Below, in pieces: positions 4,573-42,454 of a DNA stretch of 64,000 nt. The notes beneath the pieces are model-generated. The model was not told where the DNA came from. It saw only the letters and a program-made list of their open reading frames with translations, and did no database searches. The DNA lies in NCBI RefSeq assembly GCF_007994985.1, contig NZ_VOQF01000006.1, positions 186,001 to 250,000 on the forward strand, written 5' to 3'. Position 1 is the stretch's first letter. The number at the start of each line of letters is the position of its first letter. The translations under genes were made by a program, and so were the position numbers. This DNA comes from Metabacillus litoralis (GTDB lineage Bacteria > Bacillota > Bacilli > Bacillales > Bacillaceae).

Positions 4573-5292
4573 TTATTTATCATGCACAAGAATATAGGTT
4601 GCTTTTATCGGTCCGTGAACACCTACAATTAAGTTTAATTCAATGTCAGCACTATTACTTGGACCTGTAATAAAATCAATACAGGAAGAAATGTTTCTAC
4701 CCTCTTGAACTTGTTTATTTATATAAGCAGTTGCTTGAGTCATTCTTGGTACTAATGTACTTTTGGGGATAATGGCAATATAGGTTTTCGGTAATAAACT
4801 AACAGATCTACCTTTGTTTTCACTACTAAATAAAACGACTGTGCCTGATTCAGCTAAAGTCATATCACTAAATGTAATTCCGACATCTGCTTTTTCTGCA
4901 GCTTGAATATTTTTCTCTTTTAGAGATGGGTCCCAAATATGAACATCGATATCCTCTTTAGGTAATTCCTTCAATAACTTATCTTCTAAGCCGAACTGTT
5001 TATACCGCTCATCTTTCCAAGTTACTACACTTGATACTTCATATTGTTTGAAAACATTTCGGATTTGTTTCGTAAGATCTTCTGAGTTTGTCTCGATAAA
5101 TTGAGTATGAATTACTTCACAATGTTTTTTTAGGACTTCAACCAACTCATCTTTTGTTGCGTCTTTTAACACGTCATATTGTGGAGTTGTTGTCCACTCT
5201 GGTTTTGTTACTGTTTTTCTTCTTTGTCTACCTAGTTTTTCAGCAAGATTATTAAGAAATGTTTCTTGATGATGGATTTGTCCTTCTGCCAT
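4573..5292 (-). CDS. lutC: Lactate utilization protein C (LUD-domain subunit)
   Basis: This 239-residue protein is the LUD-domain subunit of the iron-sulfur L-lactate oxidation complex LutABC, which converts L-lactate to pyruvate. The LUD core is visible as DVGITFSDMTLAESGTVVLFSS (about residues 155-175), then KTYIAIIPKSTLVPRM and the C-terminal FITGPSNSADIELNLIVGVHGP signature. The start ATG follows AGGAGG and lies 3 bases after lutB, so the two are probably translationally coupled. The length equals that of family members. In B. subtilis the lut operon is controlled by LutR/SinR. Here it is joined to rhaEW, which makes L-lactate. Confidence 0.94.
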   Translation of the reverse strand: MAEGQIHHQETFLNNLAEKLGRQRRKTVTKPEWTTTPQYDVLKDATKDELVEVLKKHCEVIHTQFIETNSEDLTKQIRNVFKQYEVSSVVTWKDERYKQFGLEDKLLKELPKEDIDVHIWDPSLKEKNIQAAEKADVGITFSDMTLAESGTVVLFSSENKGRSVSLLPKTYIAIIPKSTLVPRMTQATAYINKQVQEGRNISSCIDFITGPSNSADIELNLIVGVHGPIKATYILVHDK

Positions 5293-38734: not shown

Positions 38735-39382
38735 ATGGGTAAAAATATAAAAATTGATTCTCCAAAAATCGCAGGAGAATTAGAAAAAGTAAATTTCCAG
38801 GATATTTATTATGAAGAAGATCCACAATTAATGAATTGTATGGTTAGTAGTGCACAAGTTGATAATGAGGAAATTAATCGAGTAATCTTTTCAAAGGTTA
38901 TCTTTAAAAATGTAACGTTTTTGAACTCTTCCTTTTTTAACATCGATATGACTGACGTTATATTTGAAAATTGTAATCTATCTAATGCACGGTTTTGTGA
39001 TGGTATTATTCATAGAGTCACATTTAAGGATTGCAAGCTTGTTGGTTTGGATTTTTCGAATGCTAATTTGGGCAATGTTACTTTTGATAATTGCGATCTT
39101 AATCTTAGTAGTTTTGCAGAAGCTCGTCTTAAACAAGTAGGATTTATTGAATCTTTATTAAGTCATACCAACTTTTATGATTGTAAACTGAACAAAGTGA
39201 GTCTAAAAAGCTGTGATCTTAATGAAGCTGATTTTACTGAAACTTCTTTAAAAGGAATTGATATTAGTACATGTTCATTTGAGCAACTAACTGTGTCATT
39301 TGAGAATTTAAATGGTTGTGAGGTTTCACCTAATCAAGCCATAGGATTTTCGAGATTGCTAGGATTGAAGATTGTAGAATAA
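38735..39382 (+). CDS. Pentapeptide-repeat protein
   Basis: This 215-residue protein consists mainly of A(D/N)LXX-type five-residue repeats from about residue 50 to 195 (VIFENCNLSNARFCDG, LVGLDFSNANLGNVTFDNCDL, LNEADFTETSLKG). They fold as a right-handed quadrilateral beta helix. The role is unknown; some relatives mimic DNA and protect gyrase, but many have no known function. The ATG follows AGGGGTG. It is on the plus strand and divergent from kdgK, with its own terminator. Confidence 0.9.
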   Translation: MGKNIKIDSPKIAGELEKVNFQDIYYEEDPQLMNCMVSSAQVDNEEINRVIFSKVIFKNVTFLNSSFFNIDMTDVIFENCNLSNARFCDGIIHRVTFKDCKLVGLDFSNANLGNVTFDNCDLNLSSFAEARLKQVGFIESLLSHTNFYDCKLNKVSLKSCDLNEADFTETSLKGIDISTCSFEQLTVSFENLNGCEVSPNQAIGFSRLLGLKIVE

Positions 39383-39487: not shown

Positions 39488-41197
39488 TTATATTTGATAA
39501 TCCAAAACATGTGGATTTGCAACATCTGGTTTCTCTATATTAATACCTTTCGATTTTAACAGCTGCTCTAATGATAAATGATTACTTTGTTCTGTATATT
39601 TCTCATTCCATTTAGCTTTATCAACTGTATCTCGAATGGAGCCCTTCATGCTCGCAAATAAAACAGTTATCTTTTTGTTATCACAAAACTCAATTAAATC
39701 CTCTAGTGTATCAATTGATATTGTATCAACATCATTAACACCTGACATATCAATAATGAGCCATTTTACCCTTTTATACTTTTTAAGATAATACCTTATC
39801 TTTTCCTCAATATAGGAAATGTTCGCAAAATGGAGACTCGAATCGACTCTTAATATTAAGACTTCATCAGAAGTTATTGCTTCAGGATATCGTTCTACAT
39901 TGCGAAATGTTTTTTCACTTTTCACGTAGCCCATTTGGACAATTGATGGGTGTGAACTTTTATTTACTAATAAAAATAAAGTGAATATTGCACCGATTAT
40001 AATTCCCCATTGAATTCCTATAAATAAAGTAACAAGAAAAGTTGTAATCCAAATCCATCCTTCAAATCGTTTGACTTGAAAAAGATGCTTTAGCTCTTTT
40101 ATATCGACTAATTTATAAACGGCAACTAAGATAATTGCAGCTAAAACAGCGTTTGGTAGATAATAAAAAGATGATGTGAAAAACAACAACGTTAAGATGA
40201 CAAGGCATCCAGTTATAACTGAAGTGATTTGAGTGGCGCCACCTGATTGGTGATTAACAGCTGTTCTAGAAAAACTGCCGTTTACCGGAAAAGATTGAAA
40301 CCATGATCCAATAATATTTGATAATCCTAATGCCACTAATTCCTGGTTTGGATTAATCTTATATTTTTCCTTTTTAGCTACTACTTTTCCTATCGCAAGC
40401 GACTCCATAAAGCCTAAAAGAGCAATTGTGATTGCCATAGGAAGTAAAAGTTGAATCAACTCTGTGGATATAGAAGGAAATAAAAATTGCGGGAAACCTC
40501 CTGGTACTCTTCCTACAATCTTCACACCATTTTGATCTAAATTAAGTGATGCAACAACAGCAATTGATATAATAACAATTAAAAGGGCACTAGGTAATTT
40601 TGGAGCAGCCTTTTTCATAACAACTAAGAAAATGATGCTTATTACACCTATTACAAATGTAATAATATTAATCTCTTTTATTTCTTGAATGATTTCTATT
40701 AAAATAAGATGAATCTGTAGGTGGTTTCCAATTTCAATCCCAAATACATGTTTAATTTGACTAAGACCAATTGTAATGGCAGCTGCTGATGTATAACCGT
40801 TCATAACCGAGTGGGGAATGAATTTGACGATAAATCCTAATTTACTAAGACCTAACAGAAGCTGAATCATACCAACCATTAAAGCTAATAGAAGTACAAG
40901 CGATATATATGATCCTGACTCTGGAGCTTCAATTGTGGAAACTCCTGAAAAAACAAGTAATGATGTAATGGCCGTTGGTCCAATAGATAAATGTTTTGAT
41001 GAAGCAAAAATTGCGTAAATAAATAAAGGCACTGTAGCAGCATATAACCCCATAACTGCTGGAAGTCCAGCAACCATTGCATAAGCCATTCCTTGAGGAA
41101 TTAACATGATAAATAAAGTGATTCCTGCGATTAAATCTCTTTTAAAAAGCTCTTTATTATAAATTAATAAAAAATCTAATGGTTTCCACTTAGGCAA
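39488..41197 (-). CDS. SulP-family anion transporter with STAS domain
   Basis: This 569-residue transporter has the SulP N-terminal signature RDLIAGITLFIMLIPQGMAYAMVAGLPAVMGLYAA and about twelve membrane segments, then a cytoplasmic STAS domain (~430-550; LRVDSSLHFANISYIEEKI, IIDMSGVNDVDTISIDTLEDL). SulP proteins carry sulfate, bicarbonate or dicarboxylates; the substrate is not readable here. The start is TTG at 41197 after AAGGAGAGA. It is separated from the upstream kinase gene by a terminator, so it is not under the riboswitch unless read-through occurs. Confidence 0.93.
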   Translation of the reverse strand: MPKWKPLDFLLIYNKELFKRDLIAGITLFIMLIPQGMAYAMVAGLPAVMGLYAATVPLFIYAIFASSKHLSIGPTAITSLLVFSGVSTIEAPESGSYISLVLLLALMVGMIQLLLGLSKLGFIVKFIPHSVMNGYTSAAAITIGLSQIKHVFGIEIGNHLQIHLILIEIIQEIKEINIITFVIGVISIIFLVVMKKAAPKLPSALLIVIISIAVVASLNLDQNGVKIVGRVPGGFPQFLFPSISTELIQLLLPMAITIALLGFMESLAIGKVVAKKEKYKINPNQELVALGLSNIIGSWFQSFPVNGSFSRTAVNHQSGGATQITSVITGCLVILTLLFFTSSFYYLPNAVLAAIILVAVYKLVDIKELKHLFQVKRFEGWIWITTFLVTLFIGIQWGIIIGAIFTLFLLVNKSSHPSIVQMGYVKSEKTFRNVERYPEAITSDEVLILRVDSSLHFANISYIEEKIRYYLKKYKRVKWLIIDMSGVNDVDTISIDTLEDLIEFCDNKKITVLFASMKGSIRDTVDKAKWNEKYTEQSNHLSLEQLLKSKGINIEKPDVANPHVLDYQI

Positions 41198-41335
41198 TAA
41201 AGTCTCTCTCCTTCCTCTGAAGGCTATTTCATTATTTAAATATTTTCGTTAATTTTCACTTCGTTACATTACTTTTATTTAACTCTTTATAAAGAAAATA
41301 TTATACAACTTAAGTATAGATAAAGATACAAATAA

Positions 41336-41366
41336 AATCCAACCCCTAAAAAATCGAGATTGGATT
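41336..41366 (-). terminator. Terminator of the kinase-like gene
   Basis: AATCCAA (41336-41342) pairs with TTGGATT (41360-41366); on the minus strand it is followed by TTATTTG. The stem is short (7 bp) but well placed, 15 bases after the stop. Confidence 0.6.
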
Positions 41367-41381
41367 CAATAACATTATAAA

Positions 41382-42053
41382 TTACTTCCAAAAGAATTTC
41401 AGTTTAAGAACATCCTTCATAAATTCATCAATTGATGCAAAGCTTCTCTGGTTATACCACCTTTGAACTGTTTCCATTAACCAAAAAGGGATTGCCTTTC
41501 CATCAATTTTTTCGTAATACGCATCATATCCTTTTCTCAAATGCTCCCAGCGATGGTCATCTCCAGGTTTACAATATTCGGATACATCAATTACTTTTGC
41601 TCTTCCATTCTGTAGTAATATATTTTTCAAATGAATATCTCGTGGATTTAATTTTTGTTTTACTACATAATTCCTTGCATCTTCTACATCCTTGATTACT
41701 TGATAAGGAATATGAACTCCCTGTAGTAAGCAATCATAAAGAGTGATTCCTGATTCAAAGCTCAGAACTAAATATCGATCATAAGCTGCAAAACACGTTG
41801 GAAAATATGGTGATTTCTTTAATTGATCATAGACTTTTGCTTCTAATTGAATTTTATCTTGTTTATCGTCTGCGAATAATTTAAACGCATAATCGGGTAA
41901 ATCTATATATTGAAAAACAGCTGCATCAGTCCCGATACCAATGCATCTCAAATCATTTGAACTGCCAGTAATTGTTACAGGTTTATTGTTTGGGTTTGAC
42001 ATTATTTTTATTTCTGATAAAAGTTTATCAACGATTACCCATTTCTCTTCCAT
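41382..42053 (-). CDS. YrzF-like atypical serine/threonine protein kinase
   Basis: This ~223-residue kinase-fold protein has a reduced protein-kinase layout: a glycine-poor loop CIGIGTDAAVFQY, the ATP-binding Lys in YAFKLFADD, catalytic loop LNPRDIHLKNILL (an RD-type HRD equivalent), and metal motif KVIDVSEY in place of DFG. This is the pattern of the short Bacillus kinase-like proteins such as YrzF. Targets are unknown. I favour the ATG at 42053 (six bases after AGGTG); GTG 42062 and ATG 42056 are alternatives. About 200 bases upstream is a manganese riboswitch with two terminators read in the same direction, and a terminator follows, so the riboswitch seems to control this gene alone. Confidence 0.8.
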   Translation of the reverse strand: MEEKWVIVDKLLSEIKIMSNPNNKPVTITGSSNDLRCIGIGTDAAVFQYIDLPDYAFKLFADDKQDKIQLEAKVYDQLKKSPYFPTCFAAYDRYLVLSFESGITLYDCLLQGVHIPYQVIKDVEDARNYVVKQKLNPRDIHLKNILLQNGRAKVIDVSEYCKPGDDHRWEHLRKGYDAYYEKIDGKAIPFWLMETVQRWYNQRSFASIDEFMKDVLKLKFFWK

Positions 42054-42254
42054 CATTTTCACCTATCTTTTTGGAATACTATCTGATTAATAAATCTTAC
42101 TTGGGTTATGTGTATTATCTTATATATATTTTCTAAGAGCTAAGATCCTCCCACAAACCCAAATGTTCTACATTAATCTAACCACCTAGCATTTAATAAA
42201 ATTCCTAAACTTTGTAATAACAATCTAATTCCCTATCTTATTTATAATAAAAAT

Positions 42255-42278
42255 GACCTTTACTACCATGTAAAGGTC
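42255..42278 (-). terminator. Second (downstream) riboswitch terminator
   Basis: GACCTTTAC (42255-42263) and GTAAAGGTC (42270-42278) form a perfect 9-bp stem with loop TACCAT. On the minus strand it is followed by ATTTTTATT. Its arms repeat the words used in the first terminator and in helix P1 of the riboswitch. Confidence 0.8.
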
Positions 42279-42279
42279 T

Positions 42280-42317
42280 AAAAAAAGACCTTTACCAATC
42301 TAGAATTGGCAAAGGTC
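42280..42317 (-). terminator. First riboswitch terminator
   Basis: The minus strand reads GACCTTTGCCAAT..ATTGGTAAAGGTC, then seven T (42280-42286). Its 5' arm uses CCTTTG, which also forms the 3' half of aptamer helix P1. Closing P1 with Mn2+ would therefore prevent this terminator. Confidence 0.88.
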
Positions 42318-42400
42318 TCGCTAACAATAAAATTGCCAACAAAGCCGGGGTGTTTTAACCCGTAATGACGACTTTGTTTAACAGCTACTCCCCTTTGGAG
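42305..42400 (-). ncRNA. yybP-ykoY manganese riboswitch aptamer
   Basis: On the minus strand the RNA starts CAAAGGGGAGUAGC (loop L1), continues with a variable arm containing GUCGUCAUUACGGG and CACCCCGGCUUUG, and closes with GCGAGACCUUUG (L3 and P1 3' strand). These are the conserved blocks of the Mn2+-sensing yybP-ykoY class, which docks L1 and L3 around the metals. P1 pairs CAAAGG with CCUUUG. The usual targets are Mn2+ exporters (MntP, TerC/YkoY, P-type ATPases). No such gene lies downstream; the next gene is the kinase at 41382-42053. Confidence 0.85.
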
Positions 42401-42425
42401 TAATGACGTCTATTCAGTTAACCTT

Positions 42426-42454
42426 ATCTTAGCAAAGATCTGGTATATGGTCAA
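42426..42454 (-). promoter_or_regulatory. Promoter of the manganese riboswitch transcript
   Basis: The minus strand has TTGACC (42449-42454) and TAAGAT (42426-42431) separated by exactly 17 bases, a good sigma-A promoter. The start would be about 20 bases before the aptamer. Confidence 0.75.

Follow-up and report, generated by a model that had tools for sequence, protein, structure and literature searches.

On the minus strand of a 64,000-nucleotide stretch of the Metabacillus litoralis genome (the window), a single short yybP-ykoY (Mn2+) aptamer is followed by two predicted intrinsic terminators, and the next gene encodes a protein-kinase-like enzyme. From sequence comparison this kinase is likely to be a conserved target of the switch and not a gene stranded behind the relic of a TerC leader. 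With somewhat less assurance, we read the whole as a Mn2+-ON transcriptional riboswitch in which one aptamer, with a pair of terminators under its control, drives expression of the small enzyme.

Organization of the leader

The minus-strand order is promoter-like site, aptamer, terminators T1 and T2, a 192-base spacer and the kinase-like gene. An initial annotation had described a well-formed promoter, a yybP-ykoY aptamer, a terminator sharing the P1 strand, a second hairpin with a T-rich tail using the same words, and, next in line on that strand, a kinase gene that ends in a terminator of its own. We recovered all of these features, the promoter with a reservation. The promoter-like site (42426..42454, minus strand; motif match) reads TTGACC-17-TAAGAT with TG ahead of the second hexamer, and 13/13 orthologous leaders of the genus have a TTGAC at most 75 bases upstream of the core; such matches are, however, no commoner in the region than expected by chance (5 versus 6.4 in shuffles). 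The two strands of the 1.4 kb region contain six terminator-like sites compared with a shuffle mean of 0.5. A chance hairpin was rejected on the folding z of the leader (-6.4), this excess over shuffles and the leader survey presented below.

The aptamer (42323..42405, minus strand) was identified in a covariance-model scan of 601 bases, where RF00080 matched 42405-42323 with 42.3 bits and an E-value of 4.7e-10; the whole-genome scan gave E 9.0e-10. This significant match places the leader in the yybP-ykoY Mn2+ class, at 2.7 bits under the Rfam gathering score of 45. Because its score falls below that cut-off, a default RF00080 scan of the window returned no listing. A sub-threshold score had been put forward as an argument against the assignment; the shortfall is formally there, and we judge it to be outweighed by the E-value and the relatives. 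The genome containing the window has five RF00080 matches, only one of which, on contig C34 before a TerC gene (62.2 bits), exceeds 45. Those on the plus strand of C45 and on C15 also precede TerC genes, and since the C45 leader, with its TerC gene (PF03741) downstream, scores 37.9 bits, a cut-off of 45 is a poor test for such forms. The minus-strand match on C45 precedes an FbpB/Spo0M/DUF1232 group; this is a tandem-terminator Mn2+ leader (L066 2952-3031, minus strand) ahead of FbpB-like, Spo0M-like and DUF1232 genes. The TerC label derives from Pfam analysis of three proteins of this genome and was extended to other members by BLAST clustering.

The P1 helix is formed in the fold by word 1 (CAAAGG, 42392..42397, minus strand), its 5' strand, and word 2 (GACCUUUG, 42310..42317, minus strand), which supplies both the P1 3' strand and the T1 5' arm. 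Positions 42397-42392 pair with 42310-42315, and the latter strand lies inside T1, so that the P1 switch helix overlaps the terminator. All six P1 pairs can form in 131/139 surveyed leaders, the closing pair being C-G in 63, U-A in 38 and U-G in 29. The L1 strands GGGGAGUAGC and GCGAGACC are invariant across 12 aligned kinase leaders. In its core words, in a P1.1 switch helix that doubles as part of a terminator and in its predicted ON logic, the window leader resembles the yybP-ykoY Mn2+ riboswitch (RF00080) as portrayed in passages of PMC6754395, according to which Mn2+ stabilises P1.1 against terminator invasion. It differs from the known riboswitch in its short aptamer form, its second terminator with common words and its kinase target.

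Tandem terminators

T1 (42285..42319, minus strand) is a predicted hairpin of 16 bp and -21.0 kcal/mol followed by TTTTT. T2 (42255..42278, minus strand) is a predicted hairpin of 9 bp and -11.4 kcal/mol followed by ATTTTTATT. Behind one aptamer stand two predicted intrinsic terminators, each a hairpin with a T-run. Fold and alignment assign word 3 (GGUAAAGGUCU, 42286..42296, minus strand) to the 3' arm of T1 and equally to the 5' arm of AT2, a candidate anti-terminator discussed below. In 12 aligned kinase leaders of the genus the gap between T1 and T2 is 3-7 nt, and T2 is paired in 108/108 cells of their alignment.

We surveyed 139 leaders (134 from 60 genomes and five from named loci) by locating T1 and then accepting any hairpin plus T-run up to 30 bases further on, whatever its sequence. 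This sequence-blind search found a hairpin after T1 in 78/139 leaders. Its 5' arm carries a word near ACCTTTACC, with at least 6/9 matches in 71/78 and at least 8/9 in 51/78; the corresponding figures for other terminators in the same loci are 64/621 and 5/621. These controls were selected under tighter T-run and energy limits than those applied to the leader T2s, and may include T2s of unlisted leaders. Word 4 was placed in register by its best agreement with ACCTTTACC, and seven of the 78 tandem leaders did not pass the 6-of-9 filter (L183, L203, L207, L258, L078, L088 and L090).

Across the 60 genomes, a T2 with the words of T1 accompanies 66/134 RF00080 leaders, comprising 62/71 short aptamers and 4/63 long ones. 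By target, it was found in 28 of the 29 FbpB/Spo0M leaders (which make up 29/134), 14/18 leaders of YrzF-like kinases, 2/2 of Ser/Thr kinases and 15/69 of TerC genes. A matching T2 is missing from G020 (alone among the genus's 13 kinase leaders), from the second kinase leader of G013 and from the DUF6376 leaders of G027 and G030. In the Bacillales genomes surveyed, short Mn2+ aptamers commonly carry the doubled terminator.

A comparable layout is the Bc1 c-di-GMP-I riboswitch of the Bacillus cereus group, in which one aptamer is followed by two intrinsic terminators, an arrangement that the authors of PMC11218506 call rarely seen; in our case the terminators are predicted from sequence. The same paper places the Bc1 terminators 28 bp apart. 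In the window, unlike Bc1, the T1 3' arm matches the T2 5' arm, and the short gap noted above separates the two hairpins in the genus. No paper joining yybP-ykoY with "tandem terminators" was found in the open PMC literature.

The kinase gene and its order relative to the switch

The protein-kinase-like gene (41382..42053, minus strand) encodes 223 amino acids from ATG 42053. The open reading frame can also be read from GTG 42062 (42062-41382, 226 amino acids); judged from the sequence, the ATG, which follows AGGTGA, is the likelier start. We call this window-type kinase YrzF-like, as a provisional name. Its nearest protein system is the RIO / Ser-Thr protein kinase-like fold, and in a 21-sequence alignment the catalytic residues Lys, Glu, Asp-x4-Asn and the metal Asp are invariant columns. 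The protein also shows the kinase fold of the protein kinase-like superfamily, with phosphotransfer as its putative activity. A hairpin with a T-rich tail follows the gene (41335..41367, minus strand; -14.4 kcal/mol, z -4.4).

The initial annotation left three readings for this arrangement: a new target of Mn2+ control, a doubled off-switch, or a leftover whose TerC-like gene has disappeared, and pointed to kinase synteny as a way of choosing. We compared RF00080 and kinase matches by position in 60 genomes, including that of the window. A same-strand RF00080 match lies upstream of 18/56 YrzF-like kinase matches; in nine of these 18 loci the switch faces the kinase directly, in five a PAP2 phosphatase gene intervenes and in four a DUF6376 lipoprotein gene, the leaders of G001, G006 and G015 having been assigned to the PAP2 class by hand. 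DUF6376 may conceivably be linked to B. subtilis YybP. In the window's genus the switch is present at 13/14 close orthologues (61-100% identity); no switch match was found at the remaining one, in G018. Among the best 80 of 362 named loci, 12/80 have the switch, eight of the 12 being genomes already counted, and a PAP2 gene occurs in 6/12 switch-bearing loci versus 0/68 others. A regex scan matched 14 loci, of which L142 is false (the match lies inside a gene) and L126 has a switch serving other genes 3 kb off; L131 has 15 bases upstream only and so was unscored. A cmscan of five loci listed none, a weak result as G002, one of the five, has a 30.9-bit RF00080 match. The PAP2, DUF6376, Spo0M, DUF1232, FbpB and BacA labels were obtained by Pfam analysis of one member per cluster and extended by BLAST clustering.

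A second and more canonical Ser/Thr kinase family (PF00069, E 1.4e-33 and 6.6e-34) stands behind the switch in G038 and G054. Since both window-type and PF00069 kinases are found there, kinases recur downstream of this switch. In G038 and G054 a gene for a small His/Ser/Tyr-rich protein lies between switch and kinase, and in G004, G007, G017 and G020 relatives of this protein are encoded just after the window-type kinase; the kinase may have it as a partner or a substrate. On contig C1 of the window's genome, a gene for a 58-aa protein of this kind (L283:1498-1674, minus strand) abuts a PF00069 Ser/Thr kinase gene (L283:698-1498, minus strand; 266 aa, E 7.8e-29). A distant kinase paralogue (32% identity) directly follows an RF00080 match and a single terminator in G013 (C1, about 3233508-3234290; L227 / L282).

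Other insertions and targets were also observed. Group II introns lie between T2 and the PAP2 gene in G001 and G006 (L080:2906-4682; L081 near 5198-5271); homing to terminator hairpins is a trait of certain group II introns. Genes for BacA/UppP (undecaprenyl-diphosphatase) occur behind tandem Mn2+ leaders at L272 (G037:C10:176543) and L251 (G040:C6:107822), and together with the PAP2 genes they may tie Mn2+ to the lipid carrier cycle.

Live target or relic

The relic reading, in which the true target (TerC or PAP2) has been lost and the kinase is under its own regulation, gains something from the PAP2 gene that stands between switch and kinase in five genomes of the genus and in four named loci outside it (among the best 80 of 362). 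It is likewise favoured by the kinase tree, in which two state changes are required to account for the PAP2 and direct arrangements (one in 10% of bootstrap trees), a pattern compatible with two PAP2 losses without proving them. Where the kinase alone follows, however, the leader is conserved beyond its surroundings: in 11 pairs of direct leaders, which share genomes and so are not independent, aptamer identity is 86-99% against 20-64% for the spacer and 37-88% for four-fold sites of the kinase. The aptamer exceeds the four-fold sites in 11/11 pairs and the 75 bases behind it do so in 10/11. The spacer in the window (42063..42254, minus strand), singled out earlier as the place to look for TerC remnants, gave nothing convincing in a tblastn search for TerC, PAP2 and DUF6376; the best match (E 0.04) was to PAP2 on the opposite strand, and the best TerC match had an E-value of 0.20. 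What differs from locus to locus between switch and kinase is a PAP2 phosphatase or DUF6376 lipoprotein gene. We therefore abandon the proposed loss of a TerC-like gene and regard a relic of either kind as very improbable. The kinase as a new target is well supported by gene order and leader conservation, its response to Mn2+ being a prediction.

Alternative pairing between the terminators

The 3' arm of T1 can pair with the 5' arm of T2 to give AT2 (GUAAAGGUCU, U-rich loop, AGACCUUUAC; 42270..42295, minus strand), a candidate anti-terminator hairpin seen in the fold. For 42296-42255 the minimum free energy is -14.3 kcal/mol with AT2 versus -11.4 for T2, AT2 being the more stable in the window. 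Its pairs are present in 106/106 cells of the 12 aligned kinase leaders, two gap cells excluded. With P1 free, the fold probabilities of T1 and T2 in the window leader are both 1.00; with P1 forced closed, which is a stand-in for Mn2+ binding only, AT2 reaches 0.93 and T2 drops to 0.03. Given this fold and the complementarity of the two arms, one aptamer may gate both terminators.

Among 71 leaders the outcome is divided. Under equilibrium folding with P1 forced, T2 stays above 0.5 in 51/71 and AT2 exceeds 0.5 in only 17/71. Closing P1 lowers the probability of T2 by more than 0.25 in 21/71, and AT2 is above 0.5 even with P1 free in 7/71. Among the 12 aligned kinase leaders, T2 is at or below 0.50 with P1 forced in nine; in G011, the nearest relative, it is still 0.94. 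The median hairpin energy is -14.5 for T2 versus -12.0 for AT2, T2 being the stronger, and AT2 is better than T2 or within 1 kcal of it in 17/71.

Covariation was assessed with shuffles, whose statistics ignore the descent of the leaders. Words 3 and 4 pair in 387/414 cells of 46 distinct rows, a value reached by 0/2000 shuffles, and show nine cells with double changes, reached by 2/2000; two of the nine rows (L112 and G052:C40) are probably misregistered. Words 4 and 5 (T2) covary strongly (41 cells, 0/2000), and words 2 and 3 (T1) are unremarkable (534/2000 shuffles reach the observed value), since word 2 hardly varies. A competing long helix of words 2 and 5, a pairing that none of the models calls for, served as control and was rejected, 1979/2000 shuffles reaching the observed value. 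An earlier cis-shuffle test on 35 distinct word pairs gave 288/315 paired against a shuffled mean of 279.5 (p 0.0006). In the GGTAAAGGC/GCTTTTACC group and in G054 a double change retains the 3-4 pair while the T1 pair is lost, and in L130 a double change retains 3-4 while the T2 pair is lost. Within the 12 kinase leaders of the Metabacillus genus, changes in AT2 are one-sided only. The common words of T1 and T2 could alternatively stem from an old duplication of T1.

Proposed mechanism and alternatives

We tentatively propose a relay in which one aptamer sets two terminators through five alternating complementary words: word 1, the P1 5' strand; word 2, the P1 3' strand and T1 5' arm; word 3, the T1 3' arm; word 4, the T2 5' arm; and word 5, the T2 3' arm. 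At low Mn2+, words 2-3 (T1) and 4-5 (T2) would pair and the polymerase would meet two stops. At high Mn2+, the aptamer would bind the metal and keep words 1-2 paired, leaving word 3 free to capture word 4 once it is transcribed (AT2); word 5 would then be unpaired, both stops would fail, and more kinase would be expected. AT2 should be favoured, since it can already fold while word 5 has yet to be transcribed. The ON state would thus be 1-2 plus 3-4 and the OFF state 2-3 plus 4-5. The design may be widespread in Bacillales on short Mn2+ aptamers driving kinases, FbpB/Spo0M genes and others, in which case Mn2+ would feed into signalling by protein phosphorylation and the off state would be checked twice. 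For the doubled off-switch of the initial annotation, the anatomy is supported and the coupled mechanism is supported with less certainty.

The persistence of T2 in 51/71 leaders under closed P1, against its predicted opening in the window, suits an alternative scheme in which the switch acts on the kinase through T1 only and T2, blind to the ligand, serves as a second terminator that makes the off state tighter or caps expression. Bc1 offers a precedent, since according to PMC11218506 its T2 stays folded once the ligand opens T1. That persistence, the one-sided changes in AT2 and the descent-blind shuffles make this a serious rival; we nevertheless consider it less probable than the relay, as the T2 5' arm retains its match to the T1 3' arm even though the two arms of T2 covary freely, and AT2 outcompetes T2 in the window fold. 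It is far less probable that the aptamer has diverged towards a different divalent metal and that the kinase answers to something besides Mn2+. PMC7266159 does suggest that the specificity of some yybP RNAs found with unexpected genes may have shifted, but GGGGAGUAGC, GUCGUCAUU and CGGCUUUGUUGGC are common to the window leader and the C34 TerC leader of the same genome; the remaining three leaders of that genome each lack one of GUCGUCAUU and CGGCUUUGUUGGC.

Known targets and gene neighbourhood

The targets of yybP-ykoY named in passages of PMC3766115, PMC2211319 and PMC7266159 are transporters, membrane proteins and terC, and the last source also mentions diverse genes out of keeping with Mn2+. 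A search of the open PMC literature, a scope that leaves two key 2015 Mol Cell papers outside, found no paper with "manganese riboswitch", "protein kinase" and "downstream gene". If the proposed reading is true, kinases of two distinct families join a regulon known for metal exporters, which would point to Mn2+ as an input to phosphorylation signalling, and a single sensor could control two terminators by a simple, portable design.

Next after the kinase in the window is a sulfate-permease gene (Sulfate_transp and STAS domains; 39488-41197, minus strand), on which a gene for a pentapeptide-repeat protein (38735-39382, plus strand; Pentapeptide_4, E 9.9e-54) converges.
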